Origin: Planctomycetaceae bacterium
GTDB taxonomy: Bacteria; Planctomycetota; Planctomycetia; Planctomycetales; Planctomycetaceae
Length of the DNA stretch: 64,000 nucleotides
Direction of reading: 5' to 3'
Assembly (NCBI GenBank): GCA_019636285.1
Contig: JAHBXV010000008.1
Coordinates: 1-64,000 of the forward strand
Below the pieces are notes generated by a model. That model did no database searches. It was not told where the DNA came from and was given only the letters and a program-made list of their open reading frames with translations. A program made the translations under genes and the position numbers. Below are positions 8,301 to 45,472 of this stretch, piece after piece (the first letter of the stretch is position 1; each line of letters starts with the position of its first letter).

Positions 8301-8814
8301 CCATCAAGGCAATCTGCTCCCGGATCGCCTCCATTTCCAGGACTGCCTGATCCGTCACGACGACTTCCCGCACGGCTTCGAATCCGTGGGTTCGACGAAG
8401 ATCGATCGTCTTCTTCAATCCCTTCAGCTTGGCATCAATTCGCTTTCGGAGTGCCGGAATCCGTTCCAGTTGACGAGCATTGTCTCCCATCAGTCGTTCA
8501 GCATCTTCCAGTCGCTCATCAATTTGGGTGATCGCCGAGGTGTAGGGCGCGAGGTATCTCTCGTCGCCGGTGAGGATAAAACCCCGTTGCCCGGTCTCGG
8601 CATCCCTGACCAGCGACAGAAGATCGTCGAGCACGGTGAGAACTTCATGCGTGTGAGTGACCGATACCGCATCCCGCAGGATGGCGCGAGTATTCAGAAA
8701 GGCCATCGCCCCACCAACGACGAAGAACATGACGACAATGGCCAGACTGACCACGAGTGCCGGGTCCATGCCCAGCGCTTCATGAAGAGTCGATTTAGAG
8801 TTCTTTGTGTCCAT
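5338..8814 (-). CDS. CHASE3-GAF hybrid histidine kinase with three receivers
   Basis: 1,158-residue membrane sensor. Transmembrane 1 is at about 18-41. A CHASE3 sensor domain (about 45-190, with TGQRGFILTGDERYL) lies outside the membrane and transmembrane 2 is at about 196-215. A GAF-like domain (about 255-390) and a Q/E-rich coiled coil (about 390-480) follow. The HisKA domain has H485 in FLANMSHELRTPLSS; the HATPase has DTGIGIPRHQQQMVF and GGTGLGLSISRELARLLGG. Three receivers follow: ILDISLP, VLDLTLP and LMDVMMPEMDG. The second lacks the usual KP turn (IIIKGAKSP). This is the first gene of the operon continuing with CheR, CheB and the second hybrid kinase. The layout is common for stress or envelope sensors; the ligand is unknown. 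Confidence 0.93.
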   Translation of the reverse strand: MDTKNSKSTLHEALGMDPALVVSLAIVVMFFVVGGAMAFLNTRAILRDAVSVTHTHEVLTVLDDLLSLVRDAETGQRGFILTGDERYLAPYTSAITQIDERLEDAERLMGDNARQLERIPALRKRIDAKLKGLKKTIDLRRTHGFEAVREVVVTDQAVLEMEAIREQIALMETHERELRSGRLGEMNNAYQTAMASNIVTSVLGVFLTSVVGHLLRRAALSRQRQEWLLRGQNELSAAMLGDQRLSQIGGSVLKFLADYLDAHAGAFYAEDGGRFRRVATYGVRDASQIPEEFQAGDGLLGQAAQDGKTFLVRDVPDGYLTFGSALGQGKPRNLVIAPAAGDGGVKAVLELGFVHPISGPATELIESASNSIAAAVQAAVYRAHLQDMLEETQRQSEEIQAQSEELRVTNEELEEQGRFLRESQSRLEQQQAELEQTNVQLMEQAEILAAERDVLARTKADLQQKAEEVEQASRYKSDFLANMSHELRTPLSSSLILAKLLADNPSGNLTAEQVRYAETIRSAGNDLLSLINDILDLSKIEAGGMEVRSESVHLSKLVNDLTRTFDPLAGQKGIAFRTNISSECPASIETDRQRLEQVLKNLLSNAIKFTDTGSVELTLNREPGGRIAFTVKDTGIGIPRHQQQMVFEAFRQADGTTNRKYGGTGLGLSISRELARLLGGEIRLTSEPDVGSTFTVILPEIHDPTLVLPRSQDRAAQETGEAPPGGMGLAIDGSTVARGTSLPAPAPVRRRHVDDDRDHLISGSRRILMVEDDEAFARILYDLAHELHFQCLIAPTAEEALTMAVQYSPSAIILDISLPDHSGLSVLDRLKQDGRTRHIPVHVVSAGDYAQTALSLGAIGYMLKPVKRDELAEALKRLESRLEQRMRRVLIVEDDPVQLDSMRRLLGSDEVETVGAANAAACLKELKDATFDCMVLDLTLPDASGYSLLETLSREDAYSFPPVIVYTGRDLSADEEQRLRRYSKSIIIKGAKSPERLLDEVTLFLHQVVAEMPAERQKMLAKARSRDAVLEDRSILIVEDDVRNVFALTSILEPRGATVRIARNGREALEMLEKAASDPDQSVDLVLMDVMMPEMDGLTALREIRKRREWTKLPVLMLTAKAMRDDQEKCLAAGANDYMAKPLDVDKLLSLVRVWMPR

Positions 8815-9287
8815 CAGTTGACTGCCATCCGATCTTTTCGCCTATTCGCGGAAAGTCCTCGTCATTCGGAACCTCCCGATCATCTCGCGCCGTCCCCGGA
8901 GCCCCACGTTCCGTGGTCCCCACCCGCTTGGGCACAAACTATCGCATCAGATAGTGACCGCCCGGACACAGATCGGTCAATCTTCCCGGACGAGTTGGGG
9001 GAAGGGCGAGTCGGAAAGCGCCAGCAGCAGTTCTTGCGGATCAGGGAGCGATTCACTTCCCGACCCAGGTCGCGCGCGGCTGGCTGCGACACACTCAAGC
9101 CGTCGCGCGGGGACATTATTGCAGGTGACGAATGAACACTTCTCCGCGGCGAATGGCCAGTCAGAAGCCGTCCACGATGATGCGGCGGAAGCAGAACCAA
9201 ACGAAACCGAAAAAGCGACGCGCAATCCGACGCGCGCGGTCGCGGAACTGACGCGCATGGACGGGAAAAGCGACGCGCCCCAAATGG
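8815..9287. other. Upstream region of the CHASE3 kinase operon, no supported gene
   Basis: About 470 bp between the kinase start and the tRNA-Met terminator. Open frames on both strands (for example 8954-9367 plus and 8880-9356 minus) cross the terminator and the tRNA and are not genes. It probably holds the operon promoter, but no convincing -35/-10 pair was recognised. Confidence 0.5.
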
Positions 9288-9314
9288 AAAAACCCCTGCA
9301 AAACAGGGGTTTTT
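9288..9314 (-). terminator. Intrinsic terminator of tRNA-Met
   Basis: Perfect 11-bp stem AAAAACCCCTG / CAGGGGTTTTT with loop CAAAA. On the minus strand it follows the tRNA-Met 3' end by about 12 bases and ends in a run of T, a textbook rho-independent terminator. The A/T symmetry would also let it work in the other direction. Confidence 0.92.
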
Positions 9315-9326
9315 CTGAGAAACGCA

Positions 9327-9399
9327 TGGCGGTGGTGGGAATTGAACCCACGACACACGGCTTATGAAGCCGCTGCTCTAACCGCTGAGCTACACCGCC
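9327..9399 (-). tRNA. tRNA-Met(CAU), elongator-like
   Basis: 73-nt cloverleaf read on the minus strand. Acceptor GGCGGTG pairs with CACCGCC, discriminator A; D-arm GCTC/GAGC; anticodon stem GCGGC/GCCGT enclosing TTCATAA, anticodon CAT; T-arm GTGGG-TTCAATT-CCCAC. CCA is not encoded. The first acceptor pair is G-C and the anticodon stem lacks the three consecutive G-C pairs of initiators, so this is an elongator tRNA-Met or a tRNA-Ile2 whose C34 is modified to lysidine. These two cannot be separated by eye. Confidence 0.95.
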
Positions 9400-9732
9400 G
9401 CCCGGTTGGGAAAGAGTAATCTACCGTCCGGACCGAATCCGGCAACCCTCGCGGCTCTAGAATCAGACGGTCGAAGCGAATTCCACGGATTTCGGCAGCG
9501 CGGTGCTCTCCGGGAGTGTCCGACCCCGCAGAACTGGTCCGGCGCTACTTTCCCGGAGCTTGCCCGGGCGGAGATCGCGGCGGATGATGCTGTCGGCGTA
9601 GTGAACAGGGCTCTTCGAGATTGACAATCGGGCTGACCGCATGAAGCGGTCCGAAACCCCGGGGGGCTGGTCAACCAGCAGTTCCCAGGCGACAGAAAAG
9701 ACGCCAGGCCGGCGGGGAATGCTGGCTCGTTG
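9400..9732. other. Intergenic region between tRNA-Met and host-attachment gene
   Basis: About 330 bp. A minus frame at 9390-9674 runs into the tRNA and has no protein-like features. No repeat, terminator or gene was recognised; it should hold the tRNA promoter. Confidence 0.5.
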
Positions 9733-10188
9733 CTATCCAGTCAGAATTTCTTCGCGCGATTCCAGGTACGATTGAAGGTCCGCGTCGGAAAGGCCTGTCA
9801 CATCGGCGTTCAGTTCGCGAACGACCATTCGACCCAAGACCGGCGACCAGCTTTCGCGCAAAGTCCCCAGGAACTTTGGAGCGGCGACGACGATCAGCTC
9901 GTCGAAGCGATTCTCGAGCCGACAACCTTCCAGGTAGCTGGTCAGTTCAGCGGCGAACCGTCGTGCCTCCACATGGTCGAGATCTTCGTGCGGCTCAAGG
10001 GCGGAGTAATACCCGGCCGGGTGGGCGACTCGTCCGGGCTGGTCCGACTTGCACTCACTCACGCGAGCGCGCCCAGGTCCATGGCTCCAGCAGTGAAGCG
10101 TGGGATACGGAACCTGCCCATCGGGAAGGCGGTGCAGGAGCTTGGCTCGACTGCGGTCGGCGACAAGAATCCAAGTTACGCCAGACAT
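9733..10188 (-). CDS. Host-attachment (attachment protein-like) family protein
   Basis: 151 residues from ATG 10188, chosen over a frame open to 10413 because GAGGAG lies about 6 bases upstream. The start MSGVTWILVADRSRAKLL and the later RFAAELTSYLEGCR, ELIVVAAPKFLGTLRE and RELNADVTGLSDADLQSYL match the family named 'protein required for attachment to host cells' in plant-associated proteobacteria. The fold is related to the archaeal release-factor/pelota-like domain. Biochemical function is unknown and the name is historical; in a planctomycete it is best read as a small cytosolic protein of unknown role. It stands alone, with a large gap on either side. Confidence 0.8.
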   Translation of the reverse strand: MSGVTWILVADRSRAKLLHRLPDGQVPYPTLHCWSHGPGRARVSECKSDQPGRVAHPAGYYSALEPHEDLDHVEARRFAAELTSYLEGCRLENRFDELIVVAAPKFLGTLRESWSPVLGRMVVRELNADVTGLSDADLQSYLESREEILTG

Positions 10189-10684
10189 GATTCTCTCCTC
10201 GTTCTTCACGAAGAAGTTCATCGGATCGTGGACTCTATCGCCGATTATAAATCGCGACTCCTGAACTGCAACAAGCGTTCCTTGGGCTGATGCGTTCTTC
10301 CCGCTGCCGAAGAAAGGCATATCCCGCGATAGCCTGCGTTTCTTCCGCGGAAATTCACCTCTTGAGGCGGACAGCAACGTCTGGACGCCGCATCGAGATT
10401 TGGTTGTCGACAATCGCCGTCCCGATCGTTTTACCCGACGATGTCCGCCGCGACGCCGTAGAATGTGATGGGGGGCGCGCCGAGTGGAGAACGCGGCTTC
10501 CCAGACCTGACCGGTGTGACGTATTCTTCCGATGATGCTTCACGGTCATTTGTTCAGGCACCAACGGTGCCTAAGAGGCATTCAGTCGATGGCGGCTTGC
10601 ACATGACGAAATGGATCCGACAACGGCAACCGAGCCTGGCCCGTTCTCGGGCCGCCTGATCGGGACTTCTCTGGCGAGACCGGC
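10189..10684. other. Intergenic region between divergent genes
   Basis: About 500 bp separating the minus-strand attachment protein from the plus-strand msrP; both promoters should be here. A short perfect hairpin AGGCACC-AAC-GGTGCCT lies at 10556-10572. Small plus frames (10290-10535, 10465-10659) show no protein-like composition and are not called. Confidence 0.5.
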
Positions 10685-11683
10685 ATGACACATGACAACG
10701 ACTACTCCGGAAAGGAGCTGGCGGATGAGGTGACCCCTCGCTCGTTGATGTTCAATCGCCGACAATGGCTGAAGACCTCGGCGGCCGTCGCGTCGGTCGC
10801 GACGACATTCGGAATTTATCGAGCCTTTAATCCGGTCCGGCCGGTTGTCGATCCCGGGAAGGCCCTGTCGGGATTGCAGGCTCCCTCGGAGAGCGATATC
10901 GACCTCGCTGCTCAGGGTTACACGATCGACGACCCGTGGACGCCGCGAGACGACATCCTGACGTACAACAACTTTTATGAATTCACGACCAACAAACGTG
11001 CCGTGGCGAGCGTCGCTCGGGGATTCGATACGAGCGGCTGGGTTGTCGCCGTGGACGGGCTGGCCGCATCGCCTCGCGAGTTTTCCATCGCCGATCTAAT
11101 GGAACTGGCACCGCTGGAAGAGCGAATTTACCGGATGCGCTGCGTGGAAACGTGGTCCATGGTGATTCCCTGGAATGGAATTCCACTGTCCGCGCTGCTC
11201 GCGGCCGTCCGCCCTCTGCCGTCCGCGCGGTATGTCGCCTTCGAGACTCTCCTGGATCCGGCGAGGATGCCCGGCCAGCGGTCGTTCGTGCTTGACTGGC
11301 CGTATGTCGAAGGACTGCGTATCGACGAGGCCATGCATCCGCTGACAATTCTGGCGCTCGGGCTTTATGGTGAAGAACTTCCGCCGCAAGATGGGGCTCC
11401 CGTGCGTCTGGTCGTTCCCTGGAAATACGGATTCAAGGGGATTAAATCGATCGTGCGAATCACGCTGACGGACACCGAGCCGCCGACGTCCTGGAACCTG
11501 CAAGCGCCGCACGAATATGGTTTCTATGCGAACGTGAATCCCTCCGTGCCGCACCCCCGCTGGAGTCAGGCGACCGAGCAGCGAATTGGAGAAACTGGCC
11601 GCCGCGAGACGCTCCTCTTCAACGGATACAAGACCCACGTCGCGAGCCTTTACGAGGGCATGAACCTCGAAGTGAATTTTTAG
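10685..11683 (+). CDS. msrP: Protein-methionine-sulfoxide reductase catalytic subunit MsrP
   Basis: Molybdopterin enzyme, 332 residues, that reduces methionine sulfoxide in envelope proteins. A twin-arginine signal [18 protein letters not shown] (RR at 25-26) indicates folded export by Tat. The sulfite-oxidase-type Mo-cofactor domain contains the probable Mo-ligand C153 in [16 protein letters not shown], and [20 protein letters not shown] further on, all characteristic of YedY/MsrP. The C-terminal [16 protein letters not shown]-like segment ([16 protein letters not shown]) is also diagnostic. It is followed 104 bp later by its membrane partner, so the two form a repair operon for oxidised periplasmic proteins. 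ATG 10685 is kept as the start; a shorter ATG at 10748 would still retain the twin arginines. Confidence 0.95.
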
Positions 11684-22063: not shown

Positions 22064-25000
22064 TTAAGATGGCCTTAGTCGTCTTGCGGCCTGCCACATC
22101 CCTAGAATTGACAATACGCCTGATCGTATCGTGACGTCGACTGTATTCACTCTCTCGATCTCGTCTCGAATTCTTGCCCACACCCAACTTCGGTCATGTC
22201 TTTTCCCGATTGACTCCCAGACAAGTGATATAAGTGTAGTCCGATCAAACTCTCTCGGTGCAGACTCAAATACGGCAAACATAATTCTGATCGCGGCTGC
22301 CACGATTGCCTGGCCATTGATTGAATTTCGTTCGAGGCTTTTGATACACGCGCGAAGAAGTTTTCCGGATGGACTCCATCCGCAATCAGCGCCCGCGTAC
22401 GCGATCATTGACCACGTACATTGCACGGGAGTGTAACCCATTTCGATCAACCGCAACAGAAACCGATCACGCCACGCCTCCGTAGCATATCCATGAGTCG
22501 CACACGAATAACTCACTGCTTCAGAGGAGAACGTTTCAAGCTTCACATCTTCATGACACACCGCTCCGACTAGAAAGTCATCGGTCCATATGGGAAGTTG
22601 CTCTTCCTGGGCCAGGGCTATCGATTCCGCAGTCGAGCTGCCAAGTCTATCGACCAAATTCTTCCGGTTCTCTTCATCAAGCCGCACGAGAGAAAACCCT
22701 TCGACGAGGGTGCATTCTTCCTTGACGGCCTCGATGAAGTCGTAAAACGGAAGACCTCCCGTCTCAACGCCATTTCTGCTGATCGATATAGCTTGCGAAA
22801 GAGCGCCCTCAGCGGCCAAGCTTGTCAAGAGCCCCCCGCCTCTGCCCATTTCCTTGGATAAATTCATCAATTCTGCGACGATACCCCACGAAATGAACTT
22901 CTTCCCCGGCAAGTAACCAAGAATGGATATCTCGCCAGTCAGGTATAGAGTGGCAAGAGCCGTGCTGTCCAAGACTACGCCATGCCCCTTGTGGATCGCA
23001 GTGATTCCCTCCCTGACCTCATCGAATGAACTGTGTGGGCATCTGACAGGCAATTCCTCCTTGCACCCGCAATAAAGTGCCGCTTCGAGAGCTGTGCAGT
23101 TAATGGCAGTCGCGAATAGCGTCGCCGATGCTAGAGTCGATCGCACAACTTCCTCGCACTCCTCCATTCTATTGCGTTGAGAGTCAAGAACCTTCAGTAG
23201 TTCCCCCATTTCGATCGAGCCATCATCGTTTCTTGGAAATTGCAGTTGCCAAAGAAAAGGATGCTCTGGAAAGTCGCGCTCCCAATTGTCCATGGACATC
23301 CGAAGTCGGTAAACGAACTTCGGAATGATCTCGACAATCTGGGCTTCGCGATTCCCAAGTTGACCTGAGGACAACTCTACCGAATCCCCGACACGCTTTC
23401 CGAGCAGTTTCACTGCCAGTGAATCTGTTGGAGAGTATTCCCGGTAACCACGCTGTGGGTTGTGGCTGTCCTCGATGATGCACCACGTTACGTCGGTGCT
23501 ACCTACTTCGACAAAGCACACCGCTGAGCCGATCGTCACTGTTTCGCACTCGGGAAGGTCGGGTTGCCCCACACCGGGTGGGAAGAATGAAAGAACCACG
23601 GCTTGATGGGCAAAGTGAGATTCAAAATTCCTCCTCACCAGCTCATAGGCGTATTTCACGCTGCTCAATCGGTCCGGACCGCGCGTTAAAATATCCACAA
23701 CCGCAAGACCCAGTGGAGGAATCACCGACTCCGGCCTCGGTAGTCCCTCCACTGAAAAATCACAGTCGGTGTCCAGTTCCATAAGAAGCGAAAGATGCGA
23801 ATGCCGCGCGTTTACTTCGCGACGAAGATCTTCGTCAATTGGTGCAGATCGAAGCTCCCCCATAAGCTGAAGTGCAGATGGAATACAGTGGAAGCGCTGA
23901 AGGATATTAAGCTCAATGTGGATCGGGTCGCGTAAAAAGTGTCCCGAATGTCTAAGTTGGTCACACAATCTCAAGGCGAAGTCAAAATCCTCGGTCTTGT
24001 AAGCGAGTGCCACTACCGCGGCGGCGTCGACAGGGTTGACGTGCGGGCCAATAATCGACTTCCACAGACAGATCGAATCACGCTCGAGTCCAGCCCTTTT
24101 GCACTCAATTGCAACTCTGCGTTTCTCGAAATAAGGTATGTCGTCCGAAAGAAGAGTCAGAGCTTCACGGATGTGTTTACACGCCTCTTCGCCATGTCCC
24201 GCCATTCGGGACGCCATACTCCTGAGAAGTGGGTGCGCATGTGGCGGAAGGGTGCCCTCGGGAACCCGCTCTAAATGTGCCTCCGCATCTTCTTCGAATG
24301 ACTCCCCATCAGAGAGTGATAGCATTTCTTCAAGTATGTCGATCCGAAACGACGTAGCTACAGTGGGAAGAGTCGAAAGCAGGCCGTCGAGTATCTCCTT
24401 GGCTTCTTTTCGATGCGAGACAGGGTCTAGTGACCGCAGGGTGTGTGCCAGGAAGTAACGAGTGCGCCCGCTGACGTCATAAGACGCACTCGCTCTCAAA
24501 ATGGAAACGGCGCCTTCGTCGTCTTCTCTCTCCAAAAGAACGGCAGCATATTGCCGAGCGTAATCAGGATTCGTCCGGTCTGAGTTGTACGCGTGGTGGA
24601 AATGGGACAAAGATTCGGCGTGCTGCCCAAGCAGACTAGTGGCGCATCCCAAATAGAAGCGTAGCGTTGCAATACGCTTTGTTTGCGTGGGTGGAGTATC
24701 CCGCAGTGCATTCGAAAAGCAGGTGGATGCTTCGTTCAAGCGGCTCCGGTGCTCTTCAGGGAACTTGTCAGATAGAGTGGACATCACGAAATGGCGCGAT
24801 TGCTCGATCAATGCATAGCCAAGAACTTCGTTGAGAACGGCCGCTGACGGATTGTGGACGAGGGCTTTGCGGGCATAGATTTCGGCTGTTTCGGGAAGTT
24901 CACTCGCGAGAGCACGAAAGGCAAGTGCCAAGCAAGTTTCTGGGGCGTTCCTCAGATCGAGCTGTACGAGTGACTCTAGTGAGGCGAAGTCGATATCTGG

Positions 25001-25933
25001 AGTTGAGTATCGAACGTAAGAGGCGAATGCGAGGTCAGAAGTAGGAAAGTCAGTGACGAGTGAATCTGAGAGGCGACTCGCCGTCTTTGTATCTCCCTGA
25101 AGGGCATATCCCATTGCTTCATTGACTCGTGCGCGTTCGTCATCCGGGTTGTATTGTCTGGCAGAAATCAGGCAATTCGCAGCATCTTCGGTATTCTCAT
25201 TCGCGAGATGGGCGAAACCAGCGTTTGCTACGAGGCGATACCGGTCTCGCGGTGTCATTTGGGCCCAGTGGCGCTCTCTGAGAATATCTAACCGTGTTAA
25301 TGCCACATCGGGGCGGTTGGCGTCAAGAGCGCCGAGTGCTATACGCAGCTCGTGTTCAACGTCGGGAAGTGTAGCCGCATTCTGTGTTTGCAGTTGTGTT
25401 AGTGTTGTCTCGTAAAGTGCCTGCAGAGTGTGCTGGCAACTCTCTAGGTTCGTGTTCATTGAGTGGAGAGTGGCATTCGTGTCAACAGCTATGCTGTACG
25501 AAGTGGACCGAAAGTGCGGCTCGCTGATCTTACAGATGCCGTGGAGGCGGTGCGCAAGCTGACTGATATAGTCATGTGCCACATCGGAGCTGATGGTAAA
25601 GAAAGGTGCTCGTTCACCGTCCTGTGACCTTACCCATTCCCAGCGGACGAGAAGATCCTCTTGCCAGTCATCGACGGTGGGGATGTCATAGGCGAGGAGT
25701 TTCTCTAAAACACGCCGCTGTCGCTCAAGACCGGTGTCATTCGGCCCGTGCGTAGTGATGCCCAACAATGAAGCAATGTCGGGAAGATAGGCATCTTCAG
25801 GAAGTCCGCTTCGCCATCGATCGGCTGCAGTGGAAAGATCGCGGAAGAGGGGGGTGCCCCTGAACGCGTCAAGAGCGGCACGTTGAAGGTACGAGATTGT
25901 GAACTTCGAGAACCACTGCGTGAAGGGATCCAT
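22064..25933 (-). CDS. Large TPR / GreA-C-like / PIN-domain protein (probable conflict-system protein)
   Basis: 1,289 residues, cytosolic. After a helical N-terminal region (about 1-190), residues about 190-760 are TPR-like helical repeats (for example AGFAHLANENTEDAANCLIS, YYNPDDERARVNEAMGYAL-type units). Residues about 826-885 match the C-terminal barrel of GreA/GreB: YSPTDSLAVKLLGKRVGDSV followed by AQIVEI. The C-terminal PIN-like nuclease domain starts near 980 with acidic residues in VVLDSTALATLYL, WGIVAELMNL and LPIWTDDFLVG (about 1116). I recall TPR-GreAB-C-PIN proteins being described as parts of NTPase-linked conflict systems. The gene is visibly A+T-richer than its neighbours, suggesting transfer. 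No NTPase partner lies beside it. The architecture is firm, the defence role inferred. Confidence 0.8.
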   Translation of the reverse strand: MDPFTQWFSKFTISYLQRAALDAFRGTPLFRDLSTAADRWRSGLPEDAYLPDIASLLGITTHGPNDTGLERQRRVLEKLLAYDIPTVDDWQEDLLVRWEWVRSQDGERAPFFTISSDVAHDYISQLAHRLHGICKISEPHFRSTSYSIAVDTNATLHSMNTNLESCQHTLQALYETTLTQLQTQNAATLPDVEHELRIALGALDANRPDVALTRLDILRERHWAQMTPRDRYRLVANAGFAHLANENTEDAANCLISARQYNPDDERARVNEAMGYALQGDTKTASRLSDSLVTDFPTSDLAFASYVRYSTPDIDFASLESLVQLDLRNAPETCLALAFRALASELPETAEIYARKALVHNPSAAVLNEVLGYALIEQSRHFVMSTLSDKFPEEHRSRLNEASTCFSNALRDTPPTQTKRIATLRFYLGCATSLLGQHAESLSHFHHAYNSDRTNPDYARQYAAVLLEREDDEGAVSILRASASYDVSGRTRYFLAHTLRSLDPVSHRKEAKEILDGLLSTLPTVATSFRIDILEEMLSLSDGESFEEDAEAHLERVPEGTLPPHAHPLLRSMASRMAGHGEEACKHIREALTLLSDDIPYFEKRRVAIECKRAGLERDSICLWKSIIGPHVNPVDAAAVVALAYKTEDFDFALRLCDQLRHSGHFLRDPIHIELNILQRFHCIPSALQLMGELRSAPIDEDLRREVNARHSHLSLLMELDTDCDFSVEGLPRPESVIPPLGLAVVDILTRGPDRLSSVKYAYELVRRNFESHFAHQAVVLSFFPPGVGQPDLPECETVTIGSAVCFVEVGSTDVTWCIIEDSHNPQRGYREYSPTDSLAVKLLGKRVGDSVELSSGQLGNREAQIVEIIPKFVYRLRMSMDNWERDFPEHPFLWQLQFPRNDDGSIEMGELLKVLDSQRNRMEECEEVVRSTLASATLFATAINCTALEAALYCGCKEELPVRCPHSSFDEVREGITAIHKGHGVVLDSTALATLYLTGEISILGYLPGKKFISWGIVAELMNLSKEMGRGGGLLTSLAAEGALSQAISISRNGVETGGLPFYDFIEAVKEECTLVEGFSLVRLDEENRKNLVDRLGSSTAESIALAQEEQLPIWTDDFLVGAVCHEDVKLETFSSEAVSYSCATHGYATEAWRDRFLLRLIEMGYTPVQCTWSMIAYAGADCGWSPSGKLLRACIKSLERNSINGQAIVAAAIRIMFAVFESAPREFDRTTLISLVWESIGKRHDRSWVWARIRDEIERVNTVDVTIRSGVLSILGMWQAARRLRPS

Positions 25934-37512: not shown

Positions 37513-38559
37513 TCACAGCGTCGCAATCTCCGCATTGCGCAGTGTTGCCCCATAGTACTTCTGGTACTGAGACTTCCGCTCCAGATCGGCGATGATCGTT
37601 TCGGTGAAGTCGATGCCTGTGTGCTTCTCGCTGCTGCCCAGGCCGCCGGGGCTGAAGACGTTGATCTCCATCAGTTTGTCTTCGACGATGTCCAGGCCGA
37701 CGAGGAACATGCCGTCGTGGACGAGCTTCGGACGGACGATCTCGACGAGTTCCAGCATTTTGTCGGTCACCTCCGCTTCGACGCTTTCACCGCCGGAATG
37801 CATGTTGCTTCGGGCATCGCCTGAGTTATTGACCCGCCGAAAAGCGGCATACTTCCCGTCTCGGTAAAGAGCCCGACCGTTCATCACGAAGAGCCGTACG
37901 TCTCCCTGCGCGGCCGCGGGGAGATATTCCTGGGCGATGCAATAGCCGTCGCGGATGACGGCATCGATCATCTGGTTGATGTTGGCCTGTTCGTCTTCTT
38001 TGATGAGAAAGACGCTTTGTCCGCCGGACCCCTGCAGCGGCTTGATGACAACTTTGTCGCGCTGTTCTTTGATAAAAGCCTTGATCTCGTCGACATCCCG
38101 GCTGATGCAGGTCCGTGGTCGAACTTGTTCTGGGAAGTGCTGGAAGTAAGTTTTATTGATGGCATGGGCGAGATTGCCCGGATCGTTCAGCACGATTGTC
38201 CCACGTGTCGCCGCGAGCTGGCTGAAGAGGATGCCGCTGGTCTGGGCCCAGCTTCGCTCGACCGCGTCTTCCGAGGGGTCGTTGCGCAGCAGCAGGACAT
38301 CGAGTTCGTCGACTGAGATGCGTTCCCACTCGGTGTCGTCCGATTGAAGCTCGGCCAGGTAATCCTTCAGGGATTCGTGCTTTTCATTCTTCACAGTCCG
38401 GGCAAACGCATTGATCGAGCCGTCGGGCGAATAGATAAAGTCGCCGACGCCAAGCGTATAGGCTTGATGCCCCATATTAATCGCCGTCAGGGAAAGCCTC
38501 GTCGTCGTGTACGCGGCCTTCTCCGTCATGACGTCATTGACGACAAATCCAATCTTCAT
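37513..38559 (-). CDS. Glutathione synthetase-like ATP-grasp ligase
   Basis: 348 residues. It begins MKIGFVVNDVMTEKAAYTTT and has the GshB-like pre-ATP-grasp and ATP-grasp domains: KVVIKPLQGSGGQSVFLIKE for nucleotide binding, AQEYLPAAAQGDVRLFVMNG, and the metal-binding end MEINVFSPGGLGSSEKHTG. It should join a carboxylate to an amine or thiol using ATP. Despite the similarity it need not make glutathione, since no gamma-glutamylcysteine synthetase is nearby. It is the last gene of a three-gene operon; its ATG overlaps the stop of the DUF1704 gene by 4 bp. The operon partners suggest an amide-bonded metabolite or a peptide tag; that is inference. Confidence 0.9.
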   Translation of the reverse strand: MKIGFVVNDVMTEKAAYTTTRLSLTAINMGHQAYTLGVGDFIYSPDGSINAFARTVKNEKHESLKDYLAELQSDDTEWERISVDELDVLLLRNDPSEDAVERSWAQTSGILFSQLAATRGTIVLNDPGNLAHAINKTYFQHFPEQVRPRTCISRDVDEIKAFIKEQRDKVVIKPLQGSGGQSVFLIKEDEQANINQMIDAVIRDGYCIAQEYLPAAAQGDVRLFVMNGRALYRDGKYAAFRRVNNSGDARSNMHSGGESVEAEVTDKMLELVEIVRPKLVHDGMFLVGLDIVEDKLMEINVFSPGGLGSSEKHTGIDFTETIIADLERKSQYQKYYGATLRNAEIATL

Positions 38560-40526
38560 GATTGTTGCTCCAGAAGTTCCAGAACCGTGCGGCCACGACA
38601 GGCTTCGAGACGTTCTCGCAGCTTGCCGTTATTCCAGAAGCGAGGAAGTAATTTGGGAGGTCGAATAATGCCTCGGCGGCGCAGCTCCTGGATGTACGGC
38701 AGATGCGGCAGGCCAAATTTTCCAACGTATAAGGGCTCGAGATCGTGCCCCCCGGCGAGGTACTTCAGAAGATCGCGAAGGCCGCGCAGGTAGATAATGT
38801 CCTTGGTGAGCCCGCCGCCCCGATGGGCGCGCATCGACATGATGAACGACTGCCGCGCGCGGAACCCGAAGTCGTCGCGCAGTTGTTGAAACGTGTCGAG
38901 GAACGAAGTGCCCGCTGCCACGGATGCGACGGCCATCACCCGACCCGCAAGAGTTCGCGAACGCGAGGCCGACAAGCCGCCGCAAAGGTACTCGGCGAGG
39001 ACGGCAAGGCCTTCCTGGAGTTCCTCGTAACCGGCAAGACCCGCATACAACTGGCGAAACGGCTGACAGCGGCCGTTGAAATAGGTCACCAGGTGCGTGC
39101 CGATCTCATGATGCAAGAGCGGCTCGACGCGATCGGGGCGCAGCCTGAGCGTGCTGGAAATCAGTAATTTTCCCCGCGAGACCATAATCCCCGCCGCGAT
39201 GGTGTCGCTGAGTTCGACGGTCGCGTTGAACTCCGGCATCTGCTGGTGATAGAAGTCGATTTCGTCGCGAGCAAGATCGATAATCTCCGGCGGATCAAGG
39301 CACTCCTCCAGCGGACAGTCGTCGTCCGAAAGAGAATCCAGCCGAGTCAATTTCCGCGGAACCGTGGCGAGAACCGCGCGAGCAAGGGCGATCAGTTCTT
39401 CATCGGGAGCCCCATAAAGCTGATGGCTGCTGAAGAGAAAGTTGGGCGTGTTCAGGTCGTTGAGGGCCGTCAACTGGCGGTCGATCTCGGCTTGTTTTTC
39501 CCAGAAAAGATGGCCCAGCGTCGGATCTTCTATCCGCTCGATCTCGATGCCGAACAGGCGACGCTTGAGCAGCCGGGGATGGTAAGGCAGCGGTCGGTAC
39601 AGAAAGGTCGGCGGATGCCGGAAGCTGTCCTCATGAAAGTCCCGCCAGGCGACTTCCGCGTTGATCGGGGTCGCCTGCAGCACGAAGTCGAACGCTTCGG
39701 CAACTTCACTGAGTTGCTGATCGACGAGCCGCGCCGCCTTGACCATCGACGATGGTCCCAGCGATTCGAAGTGCGTCGGTTTTGAATTGCCGTCTCCACC
39801 CGTGAAGCTGACAATTGTCTTCCGGAGGGCACTGGACAGTTCCGCGCGAAGCGTTTGCAGCAGCATGGGATACAGCGTCCCATGCCGTGGGTCGCGATAA
39901 ATGGGCTTCACCGCCAGGCCGAGTTCGCAGCAGCCGGCGGCATTTCGTTCAGGCGTGATCAGTTCCAGCGGTGGCAGACCGGGAGGAACAATCGTCTCGA
40001 CCGAACGCACCCTCACCTGCGCCGACTGACCATGAATGGAAATGTCCTCGAGCGCGGATTTGAAAGCTTCGATGGTGCTTGGCATCACCTCCGGCTCCGT
40101 GGCCACGATTTCAAACTCGGGCCGGGTCGACGTATCAATCGTCTCGTCGCTGTCCGGATCGGAAGACAGCGACCAGATTTCGACGAAGAGGAACGTGCCG
40201 AAGTGCTCGCGCATCGTATCGTCAAGGCTCTGGCACAGGCGGCGCAGACCCGCGGTATGCTTCCGCTCGCCCGATGTGAACACATAGGCCGCTTCCGTCG
40301 TGACGAGTTCGGACGTACCGGCATCCGAGTGATCGGATGGCGCGCGATAAAGACAGAGAAACGGCAGTTGACGGTCGAATCGCAAACGGCCATCACCGGG
40401 AAGATTACGGCGGACTCGTTTATTCTGACGCAGGCGTTTGCAGGCGGCACGGGCGACCCCATCGAAGTCGGATGGCGGTTTCGAGATGTCCGTGTCGTGC
40501 GGCAAATGGGGTGGAGTATCAGTCAT
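38556..40526 (-). CDS. DUF1704 / QEGLA-motif metallopeptidase-like protein
   Basis: 656 residues from ATG 40526, which overlaps the upstream stop by 4 bp. The zinc site is HEIGTH at about 473-478 (LLHHEIGTHLVTYFNGRCQP), followed by the family tag YEELQEGLAVLAEYLCGGLS that gives the name 'flavohemoglobin expression-modulating QEGLA motif protein'. The eukaryotic tubulin tyrosine carboxypeptidase MATCAP shares this domain, so a carboxypeptidase activity is plausible. It is the central gene between an N-formylglutamate amidohydrolase and an ATP-grasp ligase. That suggests one enzyme adds and another removes a terminal amino acid on some peptide or metabolite. No signal peptide. The family assignment is firm, the substrate unknown. 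Confidence 0.9.
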   Translation of the reverse strand: MTDTPPHLPHDTDISKPPSDFDGVARAACKRLRQNKRVRRNLPGDGRLRFDRQLPFLCLYRAPSDHSDAGTSELVTTEAAYVFTSGERKHTAGLRRLCQSLDDTMREHFGTFLFVEIWSLSSDPDSDETIDTSTRPEFEIVATEPEVMPSTIEAFKSALEDISIHGQSAQVRVRSVETIVPPGLPPLELITPERNAAGCCELGLAVKPIYRDPRHGTLYPMLLQTLRAELSSALRKTIVSFTGGDGNSKPTHFESLGPSSMVKAARLVDQQLSEVAEAFDFVLQATPINAEVAWRDFHEDSFRHPPTFLYRPLPYHPRLLKRRLFGIEIERIEDPTLGHLFWEKQAEIDRQLTALNDLNTPNFLFSSHQLYGAPDEELIALARAVLATVPRKLTRLDSLSDDDCPLEECLDPPEIIDLARDEIDFYHQQMPEFNATVELSDTIAAGIMVSRGKLLISSTLRLRPDRVEPLLHHEIGTHLVTYFNGRCQPFRQLYAGLAGYEELQEGLAVLAEYLCGGLSASRSRTLAGRVMAVASVAAGTSFLDTFQQLRDDFGFRARQSFIMSMRAHRGGGLTKDIIYLRGLRDLLKYLAGGHDLEPLYVGKFGLPHLPYIQELRRRGIIRPPKLLPRFWNNGKLRERLEACRGRTVLELLEQQS

Positions 40527-41308
40527 GGCCGCTCCAATTCCGCGGCGACGCCGGGCAGCGTCGACTGGAGCGCATGGTAGATTCGCTCCACCTCGTCCAG
40601 GTCGGCTTCCCCCGACCATTCATCCATGAAGAACTTCTTGACTTCAATGGCGATCGAACAGACCTGCCTGGGAAACGTGGCGTGAATCCAGCGCCCGAAC
40701 TCTCCTCCCTGAAACTTCACGTTCTCGCGCACATCCAGTCTGCGGCCATTGAAGTCATGGTTCCGTAAGTCGGACATCAATCGATCGACGACCGGTGCCC
40801 AGTATCGGCGCTCCATTGTCCCAGTGCCGATATTAACTTCGGGATTGGCCGCGACGTCGGCAGGAACGGCGTCGCGGCCCTCGCGGCGATGGTTATAGGT
40901 ATGCAGATCGTAGACGACCACTTTTCCATGCTGGCCCACAAGCTCGCGAAACAGAGACTCGATCGCGGCGTAGAACGCGTCGTATTCAGATAACGACTCC
41001 GCCACAAGATCCGTAGACGGGGGTTCGCGCCAGACGTTCAGGCCCCAGGCATCTTCGGGGCGCTGATAGACGGCCTTGTTCCGGGGACGATTCAAGTCGA
41101 CCTCGAACCGGGAGCGCAGACCGATAATCTGTGTCTTTGCGATCTGTGCCCACTCCGCGGAAAAGGGGTCTTCCTCCTGCAATTGGCCGCGATCATCGAG
41201 GGCCAACGCCGCCCTCACCGCCTGGCGAGTGGCATGACCTTGATGAATGGCGGCCGCGACGATCGGACTCCGGCCTCGCCGAAAGATGCAATATGGTGGC
41301 AGAGACAT
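40523..41308 (-). CDS. N-formylglutamate amidohydrolase family protein
   Basis: 261 residues from ATG 41308, which follows GGGAGG by 6 bases; a frame open to 41332 is less likely. Features: VAAAIHQGH near the N-terminus, EVDLNRPRNKAVYQRPEDAW and KVVVYDLHTYNHRREGRDAV, typical of the zinc-dependent FGase/HutG2 fold, and IAIEVKKFFMDEWSGEADL at the C-terminus. HutG2 releases formate or glutamate from N-formylglutamate in histidine breakdown, but no other hut genes are present. In this operon (ATGA overlap with DUF1704) it probably cleaves another N-acyl or gamma-amide bond. First gene of the operon; no operator was recognised upstream. Confidence 0.88.
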   Translation of the reverse strand: MSLPPYCIFRRGRSPIVAAAIHQGHATRQAVRAALALDDRGQLQEEDPFSAEWAQIAKTQIIGLRSRFEVDLNRPRNKAVYQRPEDAWGLNVWREPPSTDLVAESLSEYDAFYAAIESLFRELVGQHGKVVVYDLHTYNHRREGRDAVPADVAANPEVNIGTGTMERRYWAPVVDRLMSDLRNHDFNGRRLDVRENVKFQGGEFGRWIHATFPRQVCSIAIEVKKFFMDEWSGEADLDEVERIYHALQSTLPGVAAELERP

Positions 41309-41814: not shown

Positions 41815-42048
41815 ACCACGAGGGGCAGCCGCATTTCACTTGGGGCGCATGCTCGTCGCAACCGGCCCTGTGAAGACTCGCGGCATGTCGACCTATTATC
41901 CCGCGAGCCACGCTCTGCTGCGTGCGATCGGTCACGGCGAGCAACTCACCGGGTCTTGGCACGCCGCATGCTTAACGGGCTTCACGACGACGACCGAGCG
42001 AAAGAGTCGGTGCGATTGTCCGAGTCCTTCAACACCAGGAGAGAGAAA

Positions 42049-42252
42049 ATGAACTGGGACCAGCTCAAAGGAAAGTGGACGCAGGTTAAAGGCCAGGCCA
42101 AGCAGCGGTGGGGCGAATTGACGGATGACGACTTCGACAAAATCGACGGAAAGCGCGAAGAGCTTCTCGGAAAAGTGCAGGAACGATACGGCATTGCCCG
42201 GGAAGAGGCTGAAAAGCAGGTCAAGGAGTTCGAGAGTTCCTGCCATTGCTGA
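42049..42252 (+). CDS. CsbD-family stress protein
   Basis: 67 residues from ATG 42049, preceded by AGGAGAGAG. MNWDQLKGKWTQVKGQAKQR followed by WGELTDDDFDKIDGKREELL and KVQERYGIAREEAEKQV is a textbook CsbD sequence. The extreme C-terminus SSCHC adds two cysteines. CsbD in Bacillus is controlled by the general stress sigma factor; the biochemical function is unknown. The protein is small, hydrophilic and probably cytosolic. It is followed by another small stress-type gene 131 bp downstream. Confidence 0.95.
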   Translation: MNWDQLKGKWTQVKGQAKQRWGELTDDDFDKIDGKREELLGKVQERYGIAREEAEKQVKEFESSCHC

Positions 42253-42383
42253 GGACTTGCGTCCAGATTTCGGGGACGTGAGTTGCGGCATTTGCCGCTC
42301 TTTGTGCGATGCGCGGCGCCATTCCTCGCACGGAGGTTTTGCGAGCGCCGCTCAACGCACTGACACAAACAGGAGGTGTCGTC

Positions 42384-42683
42384 ATGCCAAAGTGGTCCAG
42401 CAAGGATGAACGACAGTACAACCACATCAAAAAAAATGCCTTGGACGATGGAAAGAGCGTCGAGCGCGCCGAAGAGATCGCGGCGCGCACCGTGAACAAG
42501 CAGCGTCGCAAAGAGGGGCGCACGCCGAACCGGGTCACTCAGGGAACTGGAAATCCGAACCGATCGCTCGAACAGCGCTCGGTCGAGGAACTCCGGAACG
42601 TCGCATCGAAAATGAAGATCGTCGGTCGCGGCAAAATGCGAAAAGCCGAGTTGGTATCGGCCATCCGGGCGAAACGCCATTGA
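42384..42683 (+). CDS. Small basic protein with Rho N-terminal (SAP-like) domain
   Basis: 99 residues from ATG 42384, preceded by AGGAGG. The N-terminal half (WSSKDERQYNHIKKNALDDG, KSVERAEEIAARTVNKQRRK) is the KU-like/'plasmid stabilisation' pattern found in small stress proteins. The C-terminal half (SVEELRNVASKMKIVGRGKM followed by RKAELVSAIRAKR) is a Rho_N/SAP-type nucleic-acid-binding fold. It is strongly basic and likely binds DNA or RNA. Similar proteins are common beside CsbD and DUF892 genes. It overlaps no other likely start; the next gene's ATG is 80 bp downstream. Confidence 0.85.
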   Translation: MPKWSSKDERQYNHIKKNALDDGKSVERAEEIAARTVNKQRRKEGRTPNRVTQGTGNPNRSLEQRSVEELRNVASKMKIVGRGKMRKAELVSAIRAKRH

Positions 42684-42763
42684 AGGCGCCGAGTTCGTCC
42701 CGCGCGTCCACTGGCACCTTCGGGACGGTTCGAGGCCGTAACTCAGGTCGGAAAGCGAGCATC

Positions 42764-44302
42764 ATGAGTGATACCCTGTCGACGCACCGGTCCTGGTGGA
42801 TAGGTCGAAACGGCTCGGACGCTCGTCGCCTCGAGCCTCGTTATCCCCGCGTCCAGGAGGACATTCACACCCGTGTCGCCATCATGGGCGGCGGTATCAC
42901 GGGATTATCGACGGCCCTGGAATTGCTGGACCGAGGGTATGACGTAGCGGTCTTTGAGTCCGCGGTGATCGGCTGCGGCACGACGGGGGGAAGTACCGGG
43001 CATCTCGACGCGCATCCCGAAGGGGGGCCGTCGAGTCTGTCGCGAGTTTTAGGGCTGAATAAGGCGCGGCAAGCTGTCGCGTTGCGTCTCGACGCCATCG
43101 ACGCGGTTGAACGTCGCGTGAACGGTGATTGTGAGTTCCAGCGGCTCCCGGCGTACTTCTATTCAGAGAATCCCGACGACGCCAATTCCCTTCGTGAACA
43201 GGGGGAACTTGCCTCGCGGATGGGACTGAACGTGGATCAACTCGCCACGGTGCCCTACCCCAATGCTGCGTGCGGCTATCGAATCGACGACATGGCTCGC
43301 ATCGATAGTTTGGCCTATGTCAAACATCTCGCCCAGATGGTGAGCGACAGGGGGGGACGTATCTTCGAGAACTCCCTGGTGGCCGGGCCGGTCGAGACGC
43401 GACCGGAATCGCTCGATGTCAATGGCTCGAAAGTCTATTTCGAGGAAGTCGTCGTTGCGGTCCACTGCAACGACACGGATGCCCTTTATCTCTATCTCGA
43501 GACACCCCCTTACCAGTCCTATGTTCTCGCCGCCCGGGTCAGCGATCCCCCGCCCGATGCCCTCTACTGGGATAATGCTAATCCCTACTTCTACACTCGA
43601 CGTGCTTCCGCCAGCGATCCGAAACTGCTCCTGATCGGCGGCTGCGACCATCGCACCGGTACCGACGACCCAATCGAGGCGGAACGCCGGCTGGAAGAGT
43701 ATGCCCGCGAGCATTTCGCGGTCGAGGAAATCGTTTGCCGCTGGAGCGCGGAACTCTTCGAACCGACGGACGGCCTGCCGATGATTGGCAAAGTCCCAGG
43801 CAAGGAGAATGTCTGGATCGCGACGGGATTCAGCGGGATTGGCCTTACCTGGGGAACCGCGGCCGGCGGATTGCTCGCCCGACAGATCAATGGCGAATCC
43901 GTCCCGCTCGAAAATGATTTGTCACCTTCACGCTTCGGAGTGTTGGGACTGGCGACCATGGCCGCGGAACAGATGACAACCGCGGTTAACCTGGCGGAAC
44001 GAATTCTTCCCGCATCGACGATCAATCCCCATGAGCTCAAGCCCGGCGAAGGAAAAGTCGGCATGGTCGACGGCGTGCATGCCGCGATCTGTCGCGATCA
44101 CGCGGGATGCGAGCATCGACTGAGTCCGATCTGCACGCACATGGGAGGCGTTGTCCATTGGAACGCCGCCGCGGGGACGTGGGATTGTCCGGTGCACGGC
44201 GGCAGGTATACGGCGGACGGGCGACGTCTCTACGGTCCACCGGAGAGTTCTCTCGAAGCAATGTCCGCCAAACCCGCGCAGGTCAAGATTTCCGAAGAGT
44301 GA
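42764..44302 (+). CDS. FAD-dependent oxidoreductase with C-terminal Rieske domain
   Basis: 512 residues from ATG 42764. The DAO-type FAD-binding fold starts with VAIMGGGITGLSTALELLDR, a GxGxxG dinucleotide motif, and continues to EPTDGLPMIGKVPGKENVWI and ATGFSGIGLTWGTAAGG. The C-terminal domain (about 430-510) has CTHMGG and CPVHGG, the two Cys-His pairs that hold a Rieske [2Fe-2S] cluster. Enzymes of this layout are annotated as FAD-dependent oxidoreductases of unknown substrate and often accompany stress genes. The protein has no signal peptide, so it acts in the cytoplasm. Confidence 0.93.
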   Translation: MSDTLSTHRSWWIGRNGSDARRLEPRYPRVQEDIHTRVAIMGGGITGLSTALELLDRGYDVAVFESAVIGCGTTGGSTGHLDAHPEGGPSSLSRVLGLNKARQAVALRLDAIDAVERRVNGDCEFQRLPAYFYSENPDDANSLREQGELASRMGLNVDQLATVPYPNAACGYRIDDMARIDSLAYVKHLAQMVSDRGGRIFENSLVAGPVETRPESLDVNGSKVYFEEVVVAVHCNDTDALYLYLETPPYQSYVLAARVSDPPPDALYWDNANPYFYTRRASASDPKLLLIGGCDHRTGTDDPIEAERRLEEYAREHFAVEEIVCRWSAELFEPTDGLPMIGKVPGKENVWIATGFSGIGLTWGTAAGGLLARQINGESVPLENDLSPSRFGVLGLATMAAEQMTTAVNLAERILPASTINPHELKPGEGKVGMVDGVHAAICRDHAGCEHRLSPICTHMGGVVHWNAAAGTWDCPVHGGRYTADGRRLYGPPESSLEAMSAKPAQVKISEE

Positions 44303-44440
44303 ACATCAAGAAGCACGAGAAAGCCTGCTCCGGGGACATTTGACTTCGCCAGGATCCGCCTCCGCGAATTCATGTTAACCGCTAACGCCGAACGCCGATG
44401 GAGCGTGCGAACAAGTTCGGCACCCTCGAGGAGACCTCTC

Positions 44441-44755
44441 GTGAACAAGCATCCATCCTGTATCGAGGCCTGCCAGAAATGCGCGACGGCCTGCGAAATC
44501 TGCCTGAATGCGATGATCGATCAACGGAGTGACAACGACTGCCCTCGCTGTTGCCGGGAATGTATTGACCTGTGCCTGTTGTGCGCTCAGGCCGGTGCCC
44601 GCGAAAGTCGCTTCCTGGCTGCGATTTGTCATCTCTGCGCGGATGCGTGCGAGTGGTGCGCCGAGCAGTGCGGAGCGCATGCGCACGATCACTGCCGGAA
44701 ATGCGCGGAAGCGTGTCGGGCCTGCGCGAAGGAATGCCGCGAGATGTCGGCATAA
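44441..44755 (+). CDS. Four-helix-bundle copper-binding protein (Csp/DUF326-like)
   Basis: 104 residues from GTG 44441, preceded by GAGGAG; the frame stays open upstream to 44372 with no site. About 21 cysteines are arranged on helices in Cx2C and Cx3C spacing (CIEACQKCATACEIC, CPRCCRECIDLCLLC, CHLCADACEWCAEQC, CRKCAEACRACAKEC). This is the pattern of copper storage proteins, which bind many Cu(I) ions inside a four-helix bundle. No signal peptide is visible, so it resembles the cytosolic Csp3 group and would buffer copper inside the cell. No copper exporter or CopY/CueR-type regulator is adjacent. Confidence 0.9.
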   Translation: MNKHPSCIEACQKCATACEICLNAMIDQRSDNDCPRCCRECIDLCLLCAQAGARESRFLAAICHLCADACEWCAEQCGAHAHDHCRKCAEACRACAKECREMSA

Positions 44756-44781
44756 GCCAGCGGCGGCCGTGCCGTACGGTG

Positions 44782-44862
44782 AGCCTCCGTCAAATCCCGG
44801 TTGGCGTCTCGGAACCCCTGCAAATTCAGGTACGTTTCGGATGTCCGGAGGGTTTTGACGGT
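44782..44862. repeat. Dispersed REP-like inverted repeat, copy A
   Basis: About 81 bp. Left arm CCGTCAAATCCCGGTTGG, inner hairpin CCTG-CAAATT-CAGG, right arm CCGGAGGGTTTTGACGG. The outer ends are complementary (CCGTCAAA with TTTTGACGG). It lies between the Csp and PfpI genes. Sister copies are at 48041, 50008, 60251 and 60519. Confidence 0.75.
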
Positions 44863-44905
44863 ATTACGTAAGTATCGAGAACTCAAACCAAGGGAGTAGA
44901 GAATC

Positions 44906-45472
44906 ATGAGCAGCAATTCACTCGAGGGAAAGAAAATCGCGTTCCTCGCGACCTGCGGTTTCGAGCAGGTGGAATTGACCGATCCCTGGGAGGCCGTCAA
45001 GGAGGCCGGCGCGACCGTGCATCTGGTCTCTTTGAAATCAGGAGAGATTCAGGGAATGCATCACGATAAAAAGGGGGACACCTTCACGGTCGATAAGACT
45101 GTTGATGAGGTGAGCGCGGAAGACTACGACGGCCTTGTTCTGCCAGGTGGAGTCGCCAATCCCGATACGCTTCGGACCAACGAAACCGCCGTCTCTTTCG
45201 TTCGCGACTTTTTCAAACAGCACAAACCGGTCGCGGCGATCTGCCATGGCCCTTGGACACTCATCGAAGCTGACGTCGTTCGCGATCGCAGGGTCACGTC
45301 GTGGCCCAGCCTGAAGACCGATCTTCGAAATGCCGGCGCGCAATGGGTGGATGAAGAATGCGTCGTCGACGAAGGTTTGGTGACGAGCCGCCGCCCGGAC
45401 GACTTGCCCGCCTTCTGTTCAAAAGCCGTCGAAGAATTCGCGGAAGGGATCCACGCGGAACAATCGATGTAG
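44906..45472 (+). CDS. PfpI/DJ-1-family cysteine hydrolase
   Basis: 188 residues. The nucleophile elbow is C113-H114 in VAAICHGPWTLIEADVV, with the acidic partner in CGFEQVELTDPWEAVKEAG (E20 or E23). This matches the YhbO/YraA/PfpI group annotated as type 1 glutamine amidotransferase-like or general stress protein 18. Family members act as deglycases or chaperone-like hydrolases that protect against aldehyde and oxidative stress; which one applies here is not determined. ATG 44906 follows AGGGAGTAGAG. Repeat copy A lies in the upstream region. Confidence 0.93.
   Translation: MSSNSLEGKKIAFLATCGFEQVELTDPWEAVKEAGATVHLVSLKSGEIQGMHHDKKGDTFTVDKTVDEVSAEDYDGLVLPGGVANPDTLRTNETAVSFVRDFFKQHKPVAAICHGPWTLIEADVVRDRRVTSWPSLKTDLRNAGAQWVDEECVVDEGLVTSRRPDDLPAFCSKAVEEFAEGIHAEQSM

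Follow-up and report, generated by a model that had tools for sequence, protein, structure and literature searches.

What does a bacterial operon do that joins a predicted ATP-dependent ligase to two enzymes of amide-cleaving families? The question is raised by a 64,000-nucleotide stretch of DNA from a Planctomycetaceae bacterium (assembly GCA_019636285.1, contig JAHBXV010000008.1, positions 1 to 64,000), here called the window, in which three genes follow one another on the minus strand. The first (positions 40523 to 41308, 261 amino acids) encodes an enzyme of the N-formylglutamate amidohydrolase family (FGase; PF05013), the second (38556 to 40526, 656 amino acids) encodes a long DUF1704 protein related to the peptidase MATCAP (PF08014), and the third (37513 to 38559, 348 amino acids) encodes a GshB-like ATP-grasp ligase (NF009110). 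The answer we favor, at a probability of about 0.5, is that the operon is a ligate-and-trim module that would work like the RimK-RimB pair and help cells adapt to osmotic or ionic conditions, with low osmolarity as the likeliest setting.

Direct reading of the sequence indicated that a 4-bp ATGA at 40523 to 40526 contains both the FGase stop and the DUF1704 start and that a second ATGA at 38556 to 38559 likewise joins the DUF1704 stop to the ligase start. The strand, the two overlaps, the three family assignments, and the HEIGTH and QEGLA motifs of the DUF1704 protein had all been called in an original prediction made from the letters alone, and they were borne out by the sequence reading and by Pfam scores. 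Among 76 same-strand DUF1704-ligase neighbors in the best 80 loci of the survey described below, the ligase match began 4 bp ahead of the end of the DUF1704 stop in 33 pairs, and the spacing was between −10 and +30 bp in 63. Scans of the operon for promoters and terminators gave nothing above chance. We conclude that the gene junctions are not due to chance, because the DUF1704-ligase spacing is conserved across loci.

A profile of the long DUF1704 protein was scanned against 84,980 species genomes; at least 590 stretches were matched, 563 of them encode a relative, and the best 80 loci were kept. Besides DUF1704, 68 of the 80 contain both FGase and ligase, 8 contain only the ligase, 3 only the FGase, and 1 neither, such that the ligase is present in 76 and the FGase in 71; 55 have the plain order FGase-DUF1704-ligase. 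In all four loci without a ligase, less than 2.5 kb remained downstream. By record titles, which include many metagenome-assembled genomes, the 80 loci span about 12 phyla, their sources being Planctomycetota, Poribacteria, Calditrichota, Verrucomicrobia with Kiritimatiellae, Campylobacterota, Gemmatimonadota, Acidobacteria, alpha- and gammaproteobacteria, Desulfobacterales, Polyangiaceae, Bacteroidetes, and Actinomycetota. Moreover, the trio is found on rhizobial and related megaplasmids, including pSymB of Sinorhizobium meliloti 1021, where the three genes lie at about 1,122,942 to 1,126,743 of NC_003078.1. Within the phylum of the window, PF08014 was found in 42 of 246 genomes and the ligase scored over its cut-off in 12; the ligase profile gave a match at E 0.001 in 134, mostly weak matches to other ATP-grasp ligases. 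When only ligase matches of at least 380 bits were considered, 21 of 24 had a DUF1704 gene or contig-edge piece no more than 5 kb away (the 21 include a fusion in G036, a locus in G132 of which only the MATCAP half was seen, and a contig-edge piece in G177). The concern attached to the original prediction, that homologs of the three genes might rarely be adjacent, thus failed in this survey, and it failed again in the gammaproteobacteria.

Gammaproteobacterial loci also separated a long from a short class of DUF1704. PF08014 was present in 39 of 274 sampled genomes, from which 40 loci were taken (41 of 43 rows, two broken pieces in G304 being left out). In the 13 loci that encode a long or fused DUF1704, three of which are contigs already within the best 80, the ligase adjoins DUF1704 in 12, and an FGase is present in every one, as a separate gene in 10 (split into two open reading frames in one of them) and fused to DUF1704 in 3, whereas neither the ligase nor the FGase was found in any of the 27 short loci. 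FGase-DUF1704 fusions adjoin a ligase gene in L078, L188 (Photobacterium sp. DA100), L219, and L220 and stand without one in the stretch read in L086 and L221; those of L078 and L188 are 44% identical and retain the FGase motifs. Two single cases among the short loci read, both from the phylum of the window, had another composition. In L081 (genome G065, 950 to 4205), genes for an AstE/AspA-type hydrolase and a GshB-like ligase come after a short DUF1704 gene (950 to 2038), and in L091 (G155, 7643 to 11554), a short DUF1704 gene precedes AstE/AspA and a TrkA_C-containing RimK. AstE/AspA, like FGase, strips acyl groups from amino acids, and FGase has apparently been replaced by another acyl-amino-acid hydrolase in these two loci. 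We conclude that the operon belongs to the long or fused DUF1704 subfamily, as the ligase and FGase accompany that subfamily (12 and 13 of 13 loci, respectively) and not the short one (0 of 27).

The C-terminal part of the DUF1704 protein is a MATCAP-like gluzincin peptidase domain. The protein scored 289.1 bits against PF08014 (cut-off, 27) with residues 296 to 640 of 656 covered, and it just missed the cut-off of TIGR02421 (QEGLA; 329.8 versus 338.65 bits). The residues of the HEIGTH motif (H473, E474, and H478) and Glu505 of the QEG motif are invariant in 75 of 75 aligned DUF1704 copies. An AlphaFold model of the whole protein had a predicted local distance difference test (pLDDT) score of 91.9, and in that model residues 282 to 655 (window positions 38562 to 39683, minus strand) matched human MATCAP (7z6s) by VIA-align with a Z score of 24.8 and a root mean square deviation of 3.2 over 297 residues. 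PMC10499314 describes MATCAP/TMCP enzymes as carboxypeptidases that also shorten poly-glutamate chains, based on assays of human and Tetrahymena members. Searching viral contigs with the single DUF1704 protein, an approach limited to close relatives, gave no match, and a viral origin was set aside.

The N-terminal ~295 residues of the DUF1704 protein had no Pfam assignment, and the original prediction, which had named the peptidase motifs, missed a second domain within them. A profile of the neighboring FGases matched this stretch weakly (26 bits), and profile-profile comparison with the separate FGases gave an E value of 3.8e-6 and a probability of 87% (1.5e-5 and 79% with larger alignments). 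Comparison with the FGase domains of two natural FGase-DUF1704 fusions gave 8.8e-15 and 98%. Moreover, residues 43 to 250 of the AlphaFold model matched the FGase structure 2q7s (Z score of 14.0; root mean square deviation of 3.7 over 183 residues). We conclude that residues ~43 to 250 (window positions 39777 to 40400, minus strand) are a decayed FGase domain. The domain looks catalytically dead, because Trp replaces His136 of FGase in 66 of 75 N-terminal domains and the segments of His22 (HxGH) and Glu45/46 (EEDP) fall outside the profile alignment. It may still bind something, since Arg61 and Glu116 are retained in 75 of 75 copies.

The stand-alone FGase, by comparison with the degenerate copy, has its putative catalytic set intact: H22, E45, E46, H136, and E222 (window FGase numbering) are invariant in 58 of 58 aligned separate FGases, their individual roles being predicted. 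The protein scored 69.7 bits against PF05013 (cut-off, 28.9), and its AlphaFold model (pLDDT, 94.9) had as its top solved match the FGase 2q7s with a template modeling score of 0.74, a fold shared with the HutG N-formylglutamate deformylase. Unlike HutG, the window FGase lies far under the HutG equivalog cut-off (24.3 versus 278.75 bits), on which ground a role in histidine use was rejected, and no histidine utilization gene was seen among the ten proteins of the 35- to 45-kb region.

Some operons encode more than one ligase. At least two are present in L066, L068, L105, L113, L121, L145, and L222 and in L067 and L107, each with three in a row. In a tree of 126 ligases, from which identical sequences and matches of fewer than 300 profile positions or under 150 bits were left out, 10 group apart in a clade of their own (support, 1.0) and have a distinct N terminus; both copies of L222 fall outside this clade. 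An ordinary ligase is present in the same genome for all 10 members of the second clade and in the same locus for 8; for the remaining two, the other copy is split across two open reading frames beside the gene (L075) or a second operon, L063, lies about 20 kb off on the same contig (L062). That second-clade ligases are found only in genomes with an ordinary ligase suggests two acceptor specificities used in series.

The neighbors of the operon place it in an osmotic and ionic setting that was absent from the functional picture of the original prediction. Around the long loci, MscS channels, CorA, MgtE, CNNM, response regulators, an ABC ATPase, and a transporter of the amino-acid-permease family, which we take to be of the cation-chloride type, recur. 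In 45 genomes chosen after the MscS link had been noticed, MscS gave 243 matches in about 241 Mb (summed by hand), and the operon flanks of the same genomes gave 16 in 0.608 Mb, in 15 of 50 loci, against 0.61 expected, or about 26-fold more. CorA was found 5 times in the flanks against about 0.15 expected (58 genome-wide, hand sum). A control of 39 short-DUF1704 loci (0.44 Mb) contained no MscS, where about 8 would be expected at the density of the long loci and 0.4 at the genome average, and 4 CorA genes. Over all long loci read, there were 19 MscS genes in 18 of 111 loci and 1.05 Mb (four contigs counted twice). We conclude that MscS goes with the long DUF1704 class and CorA with both classes, because the short loci hold CorA and no MscS, and that the gene context points to a role in osmotic or ion homeostasis.

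Expression in another probable carrier gives a direction to that setting. RNA sequencing of Photobacterium damselae at 1% versus 3% NaCl (PMC10308900) showed at 1% NaCl a 27.5-fold increase of A0J47_RS17025 (QEGLA), a 38.4-fold increase of A0J47_RS17020, which is named glutathione synthase GshB and listed among the top low-salt functions, a 52-fold increase of RimK, and a decrease of betaine transporters. The consecutive tags run ligase and then QEGLA, as in Photobacterium sp. DA100. We infer that A0J47_RS17020 and A0J47_RS17025 are the operon ligase and an FGase-DUF1704 fusion, with the adjacency taken from the locus tags and the architecture from the congener. A compatible solute made at high salt is disfavored as the product, because betaine transporters fall while both genes rise at 1% NaCl.

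In the ligate-and-trim reading, the ATP-grasp ligase, judged by fold and family, would activate a carboxylate and join an amino acid to a protein tail or to a small acceptor resembling a peptide. The MATCAP-type metallopeptidase would remove C-terminal residues from the ligase product, and the FGase-type enzyme would cleave an N-acyl-amino-acid end or intermediate, such that ligase and hydrolases presumably share a substrate; an acidic, glutamate-containing peptide is our first guess. Operons with two distinct ligase types would probably add two residues in sequence. The DUF1704 protein shares ancestry with the FGase-DUF1704 fusions, and its FGase half probably became a dead domain that binds a ligand or partner once a separate active FGase took over. 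The module's role would lie in osmotic or ionic adaptation, with low osmolarity the likeliest condition. The set of one ligase and two amide-cleaving families, as originally predicted, stands as a real conserved unit, amended by an extra dead FGase-like domain, by several ligases in some operons, and by the osmotic and ionic context.

Known systems offer three parallels. Like the operon, RimK-RimB of Pseudomonas encodes an ATP-grasp ligase together with a peptidase that reverses it, as the operon's peptidases would, occurs as a fusion (the RimBK hybrid), and is tied to environmental change, according to PMC11957791 and PMC12239564; the former adds that RimB trims RimK products and stimulates poly-glutamate synthesis. 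The operon would thus resemble RimK-RimB in action, with poly-glutamate added and trimmed, and differs in being built from other families, with a GshB-like ligase, a MATCAP gluzincin rather than a retropepsin, and an additional FGase. The rlo operon of Pseudomonas (RloA and RloC) likewise pairs an ATP-grasp protein with a peptidase, and PMC12239564 reports that hypo-osmotic stress defeats mutants without any of the three Rlo peptidases, of which one is encoded with the ATP-grasp protein; RloA, unlike the operon peptidase, is a secreted aspartic peptidase. The tubulin cycle of TTL/TTLL and MATCAP/TMCP uses a peptidase domain homologous to that of the DUF1704 protein and differs in that the operon is bacterial and its ligase lacks a Pfam TTL match. 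The eukaryotic TTL/TTLL ligase that opposes MATCAP also has an ATP-grasp fold.

Several observations weigh against this reading. The best 80 loci are the top matches to the window protein, which favors look-alikes. FGase is absent from 9 of the 80, and in 7 of these at least 2.7 kb of sequence is available on the usual side, so in those loci it is either truly absent or encoded elsewhere. Two ligases of the phylum (G135:C20 and G244:C420) have no DUF1704 in the stretch read, a third (G130:C120; L076, 7547 to 8925) lies beside a 138-amino-acid DUF1704 remnant in what is apparently a decayed operon, and the ligase is alone within the stretch fetched from a plasmid of Ensifer sp. PDNC004 (L180). 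CorA, a Mg2+ transporter, is not operon specific, as it lies near 4 of 39 short loci: in L090 (8309 to 9325, directly after the DUF1704 gene), L092 (5623 to 6630), L233 (6989 to 7975), and L242 (5464 to 6465). The MscS excess was first noticed and then counted in the same loci, with different models for the genome-wide and flank counts, and MscS was found in none of the gammaproteobacterial loci and in just one Bacteroidota locus (L127). Low-salt expression comes from one study, linked to the operon through locus tags and a congener. A GCS2-family gene is present in 24 of 45 carrier genomes, and the operon may therefore have a glutathione-linked role in those carriers. Finally, for none of the bacterial members did we find a substrate or an activity.

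The GCS2 carriers bear on the view that the operon is there to produce and recycle glutathione or a closely related thiol peptide, with the ligase as a second GshB and the two hydrolases in salvage. The ligase scored 168 bits against PF02955 (GSH-S_ATP) and 458.8 bits against NF009110 (PRK12458; cut-off, 408), a subfamily that NCBI names glutathione synthetase, and E. coli GshB (1gsa), of the same fold family, is the closest solved sequence relative (8.9e-58, compared with 1e-17 for a RimK-type ligase) when the ligase-family profile is run against the PDB. The ligase nevertheless fell widely short of both GshB equivalog cut-offs (197.9 versus 272 and 181.9 versus 299.05 bits), and its operon partners differ from those of GshB. 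Glutamate-cysteine ligases of PF04107 and PF04262, the two families searched, were not found in the window's genome, which is 99.77% complete, and ordinary glutathione synthesis there is unlikely. Besides the 24 carriers with a GCS2 match, 2 of the 45 had a Glu_cys_ligase match and 19 had neither, some of the 19 being incomplete metagenome-assembled genomes; the search covered these two routes to gamma-glutamylcysteine. With the cut-offs missed and both families absent from those 19, ordinary glutathione synthesis was dropped as the leading reading; the three-ligase operons are also hard to square with glutathione alone, and we regard the glutathione view as quite unlikely.

It is also unlikely, in our estimate, that the ligase extends a protein C terminus, as RimK does on RpsF and TTL on tubulin, with DUF1704 removing the addition and FGase handling a side product. 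The parallels with RimK-RimB and with TTL/TTLL-MATCAP favor protein-tail modification, as do the 52-fold rise of RimK at low salt in P. damselae and a RimK-RimB pair near 2 of the 27 short DUF1704 loci (L241, 7265 to 8601, and L242, 4058 to 5450, the CorA gene of L242 lying between the pair and DUF1704). But the ligase is GshB-like and neither RimK nor TTL: it scored 44 bits against the RimK equivalog PRK10446 (cut-off, 331), TTL was not among the six Pfam families found at E 0.001, and the RimB peptidase domain PF05618 was found in none of the three operon proteins. Moreover, the operon showed no candidate target gene, and FGase would have no obvious role. Catabolism, in which FGase and DUF1704 would degrade environmental N-acyl peptides with the ligase as an accessory, fits the fact that two of the three enzymes are hydrolases and that an ABC transporter ATPase cluster is found repeatedly, near 17 loci of which 8 are from outside Pontibacter. 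The remaining recurring transporters identified are, however, channels and cation transporters, the ligase is retained more often than FGase (76 versus 71 of 80 loci), and it is the ligase whose copies multiply; a catabolic set appears very unlikely.

The surroundings of the operon were recorded as well. Upstream in the window (41956 to 45472), divergent genes for CsbD, a Rho_N-domain protein, a DAO-Rieske oxidoreductase, and a DJ-1/PfpI protein resemble a stress-gene set, and L100 and L101 likewise have a CsbD-like gene close to the operon. In L182 and L183, from plasmids of Shinella and of Roseateles sp. XES5 (the latter an unverified record), the arrangement is shared: the trio has phosphonate genes and a photolyase on one side and a multi-subunit cation/H+ antiporter close downstream. 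Elsewhere in the window, a minus-strand open reading frame of 1,289 amino acids (22064 to 25933) appears repeat rich by eye.

Every enzyme of the operon comes from a known family, and its arrangement and physiology were not found described in the literature searched, where neither DUF1704 with ATP-grasp nor formylglutamate amidohydrolase with ATP-grasp turned up. The main risk to priority is the survey of amidoligase gene neighborhoods by Iyer et al. in 2009, which reportedly covers such neighborhoods and may already list this one. Tentatively, and at less than even odds, we extend the ligate-and-trim reading to an ancient bacterial system in which one or more GshB-like ligases would build a short peptide or tail stepwise and the product would be shortened by a MATCAP-type carboxypeptidase under the control of its own dead FGase domain, which would pair with a live FGase; the product would be needed at low osmolarity and would work with MscS-type channels and Mg2+ transporters. 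If so, the eukaryotic tubulin cycle of ATP-grasp ligase and MATCAP would reuse a pairing already kept in one bacterial operon. The uninformative name "flavohemoglobin expression-modulating" can be replaced by a hypothesis about biochemistry and physiology that is open to testing and covers a gene set from about a dozen phyla, including the genetically tractable S. meliloti. The published "glutathione synthase" of P. damselae is suggested to belong to another pathway, and the peptidase family that trims human tubulin gains a bacterial setting.

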